From Halorubrum saccharovorum DSM 1137 (GTDB lineage Archaea; Halobacteriota; Halobacteria; Halobacteriales; Haloferacaceae): 43,791 bases of DNA. Each line of letters starts with the position of its first letter. The first letter of the stretch is position 1. The position numbers and the translations under genes were made by a program. The notes under the pieces are model-generated. The model made no database searches. It was not told where the DNA came from and saw nothing but the letters and a program-made list of their open reading frames with translations. The stretch is taken from positions 1-43,791 of the forward strand of contig NZ_AOJE01000013.1 of the NCBI RefSeq assembly GCF_000337915.1, in the 5' to 3' direction. Positions 11,297-19,778 of this stretch are shown here, in pieces.

Positions 11297-12556
11297 GTGT
11301 GTCGTAACAGACCGATACAGGAACGCAACCGTCGCGAGCTGTTGGCCGCGGCGTCGGGGGGCGCCGTGCTCGGGCTCGGCGGCTGCCTCGGATCGAACGC
11401 CGAACGCACCGAAGACCGTCGAACGCCCCTCTCGGAGCGCACCCTCCGGTACGGCGGCGTGATGGCCCTCTCGGGCGGACTGGAGTCCGTCGGGACACCG
11501 ATCGCCGACGCGGTCGAACTCCCGGGAAAACAGCTCGACGCCTCGGCCGTCGAGGCCGACGTCCAGTGGCGGATCGAGGACTCGAAGACGACTGCGCGCG
11601 GCGGCATCGACGCGATGCGGACGCTCGTCGACGCCGGGTTCCCGGCGGTCGCCGGGCCGCTCGGCTCCGACGTGACCCTACAGGCGGTCCAGCAGGCCTC
11701 CATTCCCGCGGAGGTGGTCAACTGCTCGCCCGCGAGCACGACTCCGACGCTCTCGATCCTCAACGACCGCGGGTTCAGTTTCCGAACCGCGCCGGACGAC
11801 TCCCTGCAGGCCGTCGTCGCCGCGGGGCTTGCCGCCGACGAGCACGGCGCGTCGTCCGCGGCGACGCTGCACATCGCGGGCGACTACGGCCGGCAGCTCT
11901 CCGGCGCCTTCGCCACGTCGTTCGACGGCGAGATACAGCGACAGGTCTCCTTCTCGGACGAGTACGAGGAGCCGCTCGCGACCGCGCTCTCCGGCGATCC
12001 CGACCTGCTCTTCGTGATCGGCTACCCGGAGGACGGCGTCGAGATCTTCGGCCACTACTACGACGGCCACGCCGGCGGCGAGACCGTGTTCACCACCGAC
12101 GGGATGATGGACCCGTCGCTCCCGGAGCAGGTGGGCGAGCCGATGGGGAACGTCTACGGGACGGCGCCGTCCTCGAACGGCCCCGGCTACGACGCGTTCG
12201 CGGAGCGCTACGAGTCCGAGTACGGGAGCGCCCCGGGTATCTTCACCGCGAACGGGTACGACGCCGCGGCGGTGCTCCTCCTCGCGAACGCCGCCGCGGG
12301 CGAGAACGACGGGGGCGCGATCCGCGAGCAGATGCGGGACGTCGTCTCTGAGGGCGGTACCGAAGTCACGCCGGACTCCCTCGCAGAGGGCGTGCGCCGC
12401 GCGGCCGCCGGCGACCCGGTCGAGTATCGGGGCGCGTCGAGCGAGGTCGTCTTCGACGAGAACGGCGACGTCTCCGGGATCGACTACGAGTACTTCCGGT
12501 ACGACGCCGACGGGATCAGCGTCATCGAGGAGGTCGCTCCGGAGGTGGGGGCGTGA
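11297..12556 (+). CDS. Tat-exported substrate-binding lipoprotein (BasB/CosB-like)
   Basis: A 419-residue periplasmic-type binding protein of the branched-chain amino acid (LivJ/K) fold. It starts with a twin-arginine signal (NRRELLAAAS) and a lipobox ending at C30 (GLGGC), so it should be anchored outside the membrane. The mature part begins with the typical GGVMALSGGLESVG region, followed by a two-lobe ligand-binding domain. The GTG start is ~26 bases after TTAAAAA, so it is leaderless. The gene overlaps the next one by 4 bases (GTGA), and that gene is a transducer rather than a permease. This arrangement matches Halobacterium BasB-BasT and CosB-CosT, where the lipoprotein presents a nutrient to the transducer. 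The ligand is unknown. Confidence 0.88.
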   Translation: MCRNRPIQERNRRELLAAASGGAVLGLGGCLGSNAERTEDRRTPLSERTLRYGGVMALSGGLESVGTPIADAVELPGKQLDASAVEADVQWRIEDSKTTARGGIDAMRTLVDAGFPAVAGPLGSDVTLQAVQQASIPAEVVNCSPASTTPTLSILNDRGFSFRTAPDDSLQAVVAAGLAADEHGASSAATLHIAGDYGRQLSGAFATSFDGEIQRQVSFSDEYEEPLATALSGDPDLLFVIGYPEDGVEIFGHYYDGHAGGETVFTTDGMMDPSLPEQVGEPMGNVYGTAPSSNGPGYDAFAERYESEYGSAPGIFTANGYDAAAVLLLANAAAGENDGGAIREQMRDVVSEGGTEVTPDSLAEGVRRAAAGDPVEYRGASSEVVFDENGDVSGIDYEYFRYDADGISVIEEVAPEVGA

Positions 12557-18364: not shown

Positions 18365-18539
18365 AGCTGGACGAACGGTAGCATCCCACATAAAGAACCG
18401 TGCAGCGGGAGCGGGCGTGAGAAAGCGAACGGTCGACGGGAGCACGGTCGGGAGCGCCCTCATACGCGGCGCCGTCGATCGCGTGCTCCGACCGATCGAC
18501 GGCGAGCCGTTCGGAGACGGACTCGGTTCAACGGATTTG

Positions 18540-18560
18540 TGGGACCTCACGTATGTCCCA
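18540..18560. promoter_or_regulatory. Inverted repeat upstream of nirK
   Basis: TGGGAC and GTCCCA form a perfect inverted repeat with 6-base arms and a 9-base spacer. It lies ~118 bases upstream of the nirK start and before the TATA element. A second, shorter inverted repeat (CCCT-ATATG-AGGG, 18580-18592) follows. Either could be an operator for an anaerobic or nitrite regulator. I do not see the CGAA/TTCG palindrome recalled for NarO. Confidence 0.45.
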
Positions 18561-18677
18561 TTAGTTAGGTATTTAATATCCCTATATGAGGGTGAATAGA
18601 CGAATTTGTCTCGATAGTAGGGAATAGTATATATTATATATGTCATAGCGGCGCCTCTCACGAAACAGGGAGAAATC
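18561..18677 (+). promoter_or_regulatory. nirK: AT-rich nirK promoter
   Basis: The segment is much richer in A and T than its flanks. The main candidate TATA box is GTATATATTATATATG at ~18628-18643, which would place transcription near 18662 and give a short leader. A second candidate, TATTTAATATCC at ~18570-18581, lies upstream. GGGAGAAATC before the ATG at 18678 resembles a Shine-Dalgarno site, unlike most genes here, which are leaderless. The upstream part of this 313-base gap (18365-18539) is GC-rich and I see no gene in it. Confidence 0.6.
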
Positions 18678-19778
18678 ATGTCACAAGACCTCAGCAGGCG
18701 GAAGATGGTTGCGGCACTCGGGATCGGAGCGGTCGGCGCCGTCGCGGGCTGTATCGGCGCGCCGGTGAACGCCGAGACGCCGCCGGAGGACGAGACCGAG
18801 CGGATCGCCCCCGAACTTGATCCCGCACGCGACGTCGGTGTCGACCGGATCGCGGCCGACCCGACCGACGTGCCGGCGCCGGTGGACTGGGACGAGCCGC
18901 GCGAGCACGACGTCACCCTTCGCACGAAGGAGGTCGTCGCGGAGGTCGAGCCCGGAGTCACGTTCAAGTACATGACCTTCGAGGGGCAGGTCCCTGGGCC
19001 GATGATCCGCGTCCGCCGGGGCGACACCGTGAACCTCCGGTTCGAGGTGCCGAACGACGACAACAGCGACATCCACAACGTGGACTTCCACGCCGTGTAC
19101 GGCCCCGGCGGCGGCGCCGTGGACACGACGCTCGTGCCCGGCGACGACGCCGCGGAACTGAGCTTCCGCGCCGAGTTCCCCGGCCTGTTCACCTACCACT
19201 GCGCGGTGCCGGCGATGGACCACCACGTCAGCTCGGGGATGTTCGGCGCGATCCTCGTCGAGCCCGAGGCGGGGCTGCCGGCGGTGGACCGCGAGGTCTA
19301 CCTCGGCCAGCACGAGCTCTACACGACGGGCGACCTCGGCGAGAAGGGCCACCACGCGTTCGACCACGGCGCGATGCTCGCCGAGGACCCGACGTACGTC
19401 GTGTTCAACGGCGAACACCACGGCTTCACGAAGGGTCGGCGCGGCGCGATCGGCGCCCGAGTCGGCGAGACCGTCCGCGTGTTCTTCGTGAACGGCGGCC
19501 CGAACCAGTCCAGCTCGTGGCACCCGATCGGGAACGTCTGGTCGCGACTGTACCGCGACGGCGACCTCGTCTCCGACCCCGCCCGATACGTCGAGACGAC
19601 GCCGGTCGCGCCCGGGACGGCGACCGTGGGCGAAATGGAGCTGCCGGTGCCGGGACCGATCAAGGTCGTCGACCACGCGCTCTCGCGGGCCGGACGCCGC
19701 GGCGCGCTCGCGGTCGTGAACGTCGACGGCGAACCGAACCCGGACGTGTACGAACCGGGTACCGAACAGTCGGCCTGA
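18678..19778 (+). CDS. nirK: Copper-containing nitrite reductase (NO-forming)
   Basis: A 366-residue two-cupredoxin-domain enzyme reducing nitrite to nitric oxide in denitrification, outside the membrane. The Tat signal LSRRKMVAALG leads to a lipobox Cys at C25 (AVAGC). By alignment from memory to Alcaligenes NirK, type 1 copper ligands are H133, C175, H183 and M188, and type 2 ligands are H138, H174 and H333 (VVDHAL). The catalytic pair is D136 (HNVDFHA) and H282 (SSWHPIG). The 51-residue spacing from H282 to H333 equals the family spacing. All key residues are present, so it should be active. No azurin-like halocyanin, nor, nar or nos gene is in the window. Confidence 0.95.
   Translation: MSQDLSRRKMVAALGIGAVGAVAGCIGAPVNAETPPEDETERIAPELDPARDVGVDRIAADPTDVPAPVDWDEPREHDVTLRTKEVVAEVEPGVTFKYMTFEGQVPGPMIRVRRGDTVNLRFEVPNDDNSDIHNVDFHAVYGPGGGAVDTTLVPGDDAAELSFRAEFPGLFTYHCAVPAMDHHVSSGMFGAILVEPEAGLPAVDREVYLGQHELYTTGDLGEKGHHAFDHGAMLAEDPTYVVFNGEHHGFTKGRRGAIGARVGETVRVFFVNGGPNQSSSWHPIGNVWSRLYRDGDLVSDPARYVETTPVAPGTATVGEMELPVPGPIKVVDHALSRAGRRGALAVVNVDGEPNPDVYEPGTEQSA

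Follow-up and report, generated by a model that had tools for sequence, protein, structure and literature searches.

The control region of nirK in Halorubrum saccharovorum DSM 1137 would, on balance, represent a second class of haloarchaeal nirK promoter, in which the inverted repeat IR2 is read by a dimeric regulator. Comparison shows a TATA-like box about 108 nt before the ATG and, immediately 3' of it, a CCC-(AT-rich core)-GGG repeat (IR2) in the place that the CGAACATGTTCG-type motif takes in other haloarchaeal nirK promoters; further 3' lie a second TATA-like box near −50 and a Shine-Dalgarno (SD)-like site. The protein bound at IR2 would be a regulator other than, or acting besides, the reader of CGAACATGTTCG. 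By the comparison of sequences, the candidate for a conserved site is IR2 together with the box beside it, and not the more distal repeat IR1. Features of the window, i.e. the whole 43,791-nt stretch of DNA that was analysed, are collected in Table 1.

Table 1 Features of the nirK region (window positions)
Feature	Position	Strand	Basis or remark
IR1, TGGGAC-N9-GTCCCA	18540–18560		sequence; not conserved
Upstream TATA-like box, TATTTAA	18570–18576	+	6/7 columns invariant in 11 distinct Halorubrum promoters
IR2, CCCT-N5-AGGG, putative regulator site immediately 3' of the box	18580–18592		box-repeat layout survey
Purine-rich GGGAATAG before the second box, putatively BRE-like	18620–18627	+	sequence
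Second TATA-like box, TATATATTATATAT	18628–18641	+	AT-only run in 11/11 Halorubrum promoters
SD-like GGGAG, 5 nt before the ATG	18668–18672	+	sequence; partly conserved
nirK, copper nitrite reductase, 366 aa	18678–19778	+	open frame and structure similarity

Gene and surroundings

The frame of nirK is complete and lies beside an AT-rich island (GC 0.46 in 18500–18699 vs. about 0.70 in coding stretches), both as claimed in a preliminary description of this DNA. Residues 58–359 of the product matched solved copper nitrite reductases (6the_A, E 5.8e-75), and the assignment as NirK is based on this similarity including the aligned copper-binding segment FTYHC with its ligand residues. The claim that nirK is isolated was borne out for the neighbours examined at about 12.5–26 kb of the window, among which no further denitrification gene was recognised, the Pfam scan covering four window proteins only. 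A DoxX-family gene (Pfam) lies upstream of nirK and pdxS, named from its sequence only, downstream. According to simple gene calls, the flanking genes vary among Halorubrum genomes and the stretch from TATTTAA to ATG is kept; the upstream box is therefore unlikely to be the promoter of a divergent gene.

Conservation within Halorubrum

A total of 52 Halorubrum genomes, that of the window included, were searched, and a nirK match at E ≤ 1e-60 was found in 16. Promoters were read from 13 complete-range nirK copies of the window's kind (≥87% identity; 12 genomes, window included), which gave 11 distinct promoters; a short fragment of the same nirK kind (L015/L046) was left out. Mean pairwise identity among the 11 was 0.33 in 18510–18539, 0.41 in IR1, 0.97 in TATTTAA, 0.73 in IR2 with its flanks, 0.58 in the spacer, 0.87 in 18618–18645, 0.60 in the leader part and 0.68 in the SD part. 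The fragment, of about 140 residues and 89–91% identity to Halorubrum-type nirK, is located on a Halobellus captivus contig and is apparently truncated, with a CGAACATGTTCC site upstream of it. One in-frame TGA was noted within the nirK match of H. halodurans (L012, G013:C29), which may be broken or misread; its promoter is conserved.

Both repeats are present in the window as first described, and alignment of the related upstream regions separated them: IR2 falls within a conserved block and IR1 is not conserved. The order of the block is TATA-like box, 3 nt, CCC, AT-rich core, GGG; it is kept in Halorubrum nirK promoters, and its layout is also found in those of Natrialbaceae. The counterpart of IR2 is perfect in H. 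aquaticum (CCCTCATATGAGGG), reads CCCCC-N5-GGGGG in H. lipolyticum and is weaker (CCCC..GGTGG) in H. amylolyticum, H. trapanicum, H. salipaludis and one H. salsamenti copy. The degenerate right arm GGTGG thus occurs in 2 of the 11 distinct promoters (4 of 13 copies), and the strict box-repeat layout in the other 9. Within the 138 bp of the control region, four repeats with 4-bp arms and a loop of exactly 5 were counted against a shuffle mean of 0.8, a number reached in 2% of shuffles when AT-only repeats are counted in. The TATA box that had been placed downstream of the repeats is there, as the second of two TATA-like boxes with IR2 lying between them.

IR1 in its exact form occurs once in the 3.42 Mb genome, about 0.4 occurrences being expected from base composition alone (estimate). 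When the 138 bp were shuffled 300 times with dinucleotides kept, 4% of the shuffles contained a GC-rich repeat of its kind (at least 4 G/C, 6-bp arms, loop ≤ 12), so that conservation was needed to decide on it. None of its 21 columns is invariant in the 11 distinct Halorubrum promoters, and over this block the remaining distinct promoters of orthologues are 35% identical to the window. A displaced one-mismatch version, CGGGAC-N7-GTCCCA, was found in CSM-61 only, 11 nt further from the ATG; a match of this grade in any of 10 relatives is expected in 4% of shuffle sets. IR1 was hence rejected as a conserved operator and, against the earlier proposal of a regulator site, is probably incidental, by chance or at strain level. 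We regard it as distinctly improbable that IR1 is a real operator recently gained by this species: its place immediately 5' of the upstream box, a usual position for activators, its rarity in shuffles and the copy in CSM-61 would suit such a site, and against it stand the lack of any invariant column in Halorubrum and its presence in only 2 of the 125 haloarchaeal promoters surveyed below.

Two types of haloarchaeal nirK promoter

A class-wide search of 391 genomes gave a nirK match at ≤1e-80 in 211. From this search, that of the genus and further ones, 125 distinct upstream regions were read; these are mostly best-scoring rows and not an even sample, and the promoters are related, their counts not being independent. 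Start codons were set by script, with none for two promoters (L041, L124). The box-repeat promoter, defined here as type B, consists of a TATA-like box at −120 to −90, 1–5 nt, CC(C), 5–11 nt and GGG; the Haloferax-type motif (type A) was called as a CGAACATGTTCG-like 12-mer matching at ≥9 of 12 positions and starting at −100 to −70. The nirK promoter of the window belongs to type B, with TATTTAATATCCCTATATGAGGG at −108.

The strict box-repeat layout was found in 45 of the 125 promoters, at a near-fixed distance from the ATG (repeat centre at a median of −91.5, range −101 to −86.5). Three quarters of the promoters with a TATA-like box in place have the repeat (45 of 60; shuffle mean 2.1, maximum 8, 1000 shuffles), and 34 have it when CCC is demanded (shuffle mean 0.5, maximum 4). 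The CGAACATGTTCG-like motif was called in 53/125 (shuffled-zone mean 1.4, maximum 5, 200 shuffles). No promoter carries both elements and 27 carry neither; an earlier listing of 50 type A promoters had left out loose box matches by construction. In L106, L120 and L122, TATTTAA stands with a CGAAC-type motif and without the strict repeat.

The box reads TATTTAA in 23 cases, TACTTAA in 8, TATATAA in 6, TATAAAA in 3, TATAAAT and CATTTAA in 2 each and TATATAG in 1, and the 6 nt before it are 77% purine vs. 47% further up. This purine-rich 5' side fits a putative BRE and TATA box facing nirK. Besides Halorubrum, strict box-repeat promoters belong mostly to a Natrialbaceae-containing family of the NirK tree, and the repeats of the two groups differ in core (CATATG-like or CGATAT) and in spacing. 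Seven genomes have nirK genes of both types (the Halorubrum genomes G004, G014, G026, G027 and G036, besides G377 and G392), the right arm of the type B repeat being degenerate in G004, G026 and one G027 copy.

Two further observations concern the sequences around these elements. Several type B promoters of one genus (L060, L061, L066, L076, L078, L099) have a CCGATCATTGTTCGG-like sequence immediately before the box; in L078 it is CGAACAATGTTCG, and it resembles the Haloferax motif with one extra base. GRGAAYC near −60 and TTGAACGTATGTC-like letters near −42 are common to many nirK promoters of both types.

The same survey bears on the possibility that IR2 is a GC-flanked piece of the core promoter without a dedicated regulator, nirK being controlled elsewhere or by a weak canonical site, for which CGAATTTGTCTC (18601–18612), a 7/12 match near the usual place, is a candidate. 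The arms of IR2 are indeed short and imperfect in several orthologues, and the strict layout was seen solely at nirK in what was examined. We nevertheless consider this improbable, given that CCC..GGG after the box lies far above shuffles in several genera, that the layout replaces the canonical motif without overlap, and that the CGAATTTGTCTC stretch is not conserved in other Halorubrum promoters.

Distribution of the element

The strict TATTTAA box-repeat pattern has one match in the window's own genome, that at nirK, and no second target. In 25 relatives, CCCNCGATATN0-4GGG with a box upstream occurred only at nirK among the 30 loci read of those listed: 7 of these loci, at 6 places, have a box upstream, and each of them is nirK. 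In the 25 relatives CCCNCGATAT..GGG was counted more often than a reversed-pattern control, but most of the loci inspected resemble coding DNA and lack a box. No wider regulon of strict-layout promoters was found in the own genome or among the 30 loci.

In a NirK tree of 64 rows (midpoint root, long rows, L045 being a broken reading), the 12 Halorubrum type B rows group together with support of 100/100. Their closest neighbours in the tree are of type A or of neither type, and further type B rows occur among Natrialbaceae. Labels of promoter type are strongly clustered (no shuffle out of 500 gave a value this low), and the branches with good support require at least four changes; L052 was counted as neither in spite of a type B element with GGTGG. 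A single origin of type B by descent with NirK was rejected on these changes. Because core and spacing differ and the tree forces at least four changes, the repeats of Halorubrum and those of Natrialbaceae may be different elements.

Relation to the Haloferax-type motif

According to the accessible parts of PMC10062603, CGAAYATDKTYG occurs in nar, nir, nor and nos promoters of Haloferax mediterranei, at nirK 79 nt before the ATG, and the genome of this species is without narO; the motif is extended to further genes in the accessible part of PMC11218638. The palindromic nirK site described there lies at nearly the same distance from the ATG as the site in the window, whereas the window's nirK has 7/12 matches to the Haloferax-type motif at best and, as its own site, CCC..GGG immediately 3' of a TATA-like box. 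The best 12-mer of each of the 11 distinct Halorubrum promoters of this kind matches 6 to 8 of 12.

At norB of the same genome, an exact CGAACATGTTCG is present at C11:21744–21755, 140 nt ahead of the likely start codon ATG, and a copy matching 10 of 12 positions lies in between. In one genome, therefore, nirK lies outside the motif and norB within it. One-mismatch copies were found on contig C26 beside a DUF2249-like frame (named by likeness to a Pfam-identified frame), a COX1 match too weak to reach its cut-off and an HTH_10 gene. The genome has nosZ, for which the 400 nt upstream, where another frame adjoins, contain a 12-mer of 9/12 at most. Just before the nosZ start ends the frame of a winged-helix-looking protein (L194, G000:C70; MTQWTQLGPRERELLAVLRR...), in which a likeness to BlaI/CopY-type regulators was noted by eye only.

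Since the motif is missing at nirK and exact at norB, it is plausible that nirK is under a control different from, or additional to, the motif regulator. The preliminary description, which saw no CGAA/TTCG palindrome and suggested another regulator, is upheld in outline on both points, with IR2 and not IR1 as the candidate site. Work by Hattori from 2016 is said to describe NarO-controlled nar and nir promoters of Haloferax volcanii. These are likewise haloarchaeal denitrification promoters, and HTH_10 genes are also present in the window's genome; compared by sequence, the nirK promoter of the window differs in having no NarO-type palindrome.

In H. aquaticum and H. lipolyticum, the strand that carries nirK also encodes, upstream of it, a DtxR-like (Fe_dep_repress) protein of 160 aa with extra cysteines near both ends, possibly a metal or NO sensor (L031:3348–3830, L030:2615–3097). 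This protein was rejected as a common regulator, the window's own genome containing only partial, distant matches (43% over 96 residues; 28%).

Second box, leader and reading of IR2

The block 18618–18645, which includes the second box, has 16/28 invariant columns in the Halorubrum promoters. An AT-only run falls in the −50 to −41 bin of all 11, and many other nirK promoters have, near −60, GRGAAYC-like letters comparable to the GGGAATAG stretch. Among 12 further promoters from Haloferacaceae, several have TTTATA or TTATAC near −47; the Haloferax-type motif lies near −85 in 10 of these 12 and near −106 in 2. Because TTTATA/TTATAC recurs there, the second AT-only run may be a core promoter as well.

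The SD part (18664–18677) has 4/14 invariant columns in Halorubrum. An SD-like site precedes nirK as described, and the claim that it sets the gene apart from its neighbours holds in part, GGAGG or GGAG being present before the putative GTG starts listed for the ORFs at 12553 and 20951. The leader gave no sign of a conserved RNA fold or of a described RNA family: no fold better than shuffles (z +1.28), no compensated pair and no Rfam match were obtained.

Some archaeal repressor operators are located between TATA box and start site, and IR2 resembles them, judged here from spacing, in lying directly 3' of a TATA-like box at a fixed distance. Haloarchaeal BRE, TATA and −10 consensus sequences, as well as the rarity of leaders in Haloferax volcanii, are given in the accessible part of PMC4983044, and a distance of about 28 nt from TATA box to start in that of PMC8553660. 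On this spacing, transcripts would start near 18600 from the upstream box and near 18660 from the second. With a start about 27 nt after the upstream box, IR2 would cover roughly −21 to −9, so that the simplest effect of a protein at this site would be to block the upstream promoter; alternatively, IR2 would be an upstream site for the downstream promoter. If a second promoter class exists, we prefer to read IR2 as an operator that acts on the upstream promoter rather than as an activator site that serves the downstream promoter: the former, drawn from the spacing, appears modestly probable, and the latter is a tentative second choice.

Taken by itself, the proposal that box and IR2 together form an upstream activating sequence for the downstream box, with an activator bound about 40 nt upstream of that box, seems rather unlikely, though it deserves weight. 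A bacterio-opsin-activator (HTH_10) protein would be an example of such an activator. The downstream box is present in all 11 Halorubrum promoters, in Haloferacaceae promoters TTTATA or TTATAC near −47 accompanies a Haloferax motif near −85, and mutation of the motif in Haloferax mediterranei lowered norp and nosp significantly and nirp not significantly, according to the accessible part of PMC10062603. Against this, the upstream box varies as a TATA box does and has purines on its 5' side, neither of which would be required of a mere portion of a protein site, and many Natrialbaceae type B promoters are without an AT-only run near −47.

Conclusions

Regulators of haloarchaeal denitrification are mostly unknown, and NarO is the sole one described according to the accessible part of PMC11218638. 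The box-repeat element is not described in the accessible parts of PMC10062603 or PMC11218638, the literature search having been confined to sources outside subscription journals. A second, undescribed haloarchaeal nirK regulator, whose CCC..GGG operator beside the upstream TATA box replaces the common motif, is proposed tentatively. If this is true, only one of the two nirK genes in genomes that have both would belong to the denitrification regulon, the other being run outside it, and H. saccharovorum and species like it would uncouple nitrite reduction from the control of norB. IR2 offers a defined site for regulator capture, with the genomes that have one nirK of each type as the natural comparison. 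A motif-free nirK promoter together with the motif at norB suggests that the making and the removal of nitric oxide may be controlled separately, which bears on the release of NO and N2O from saline environments.
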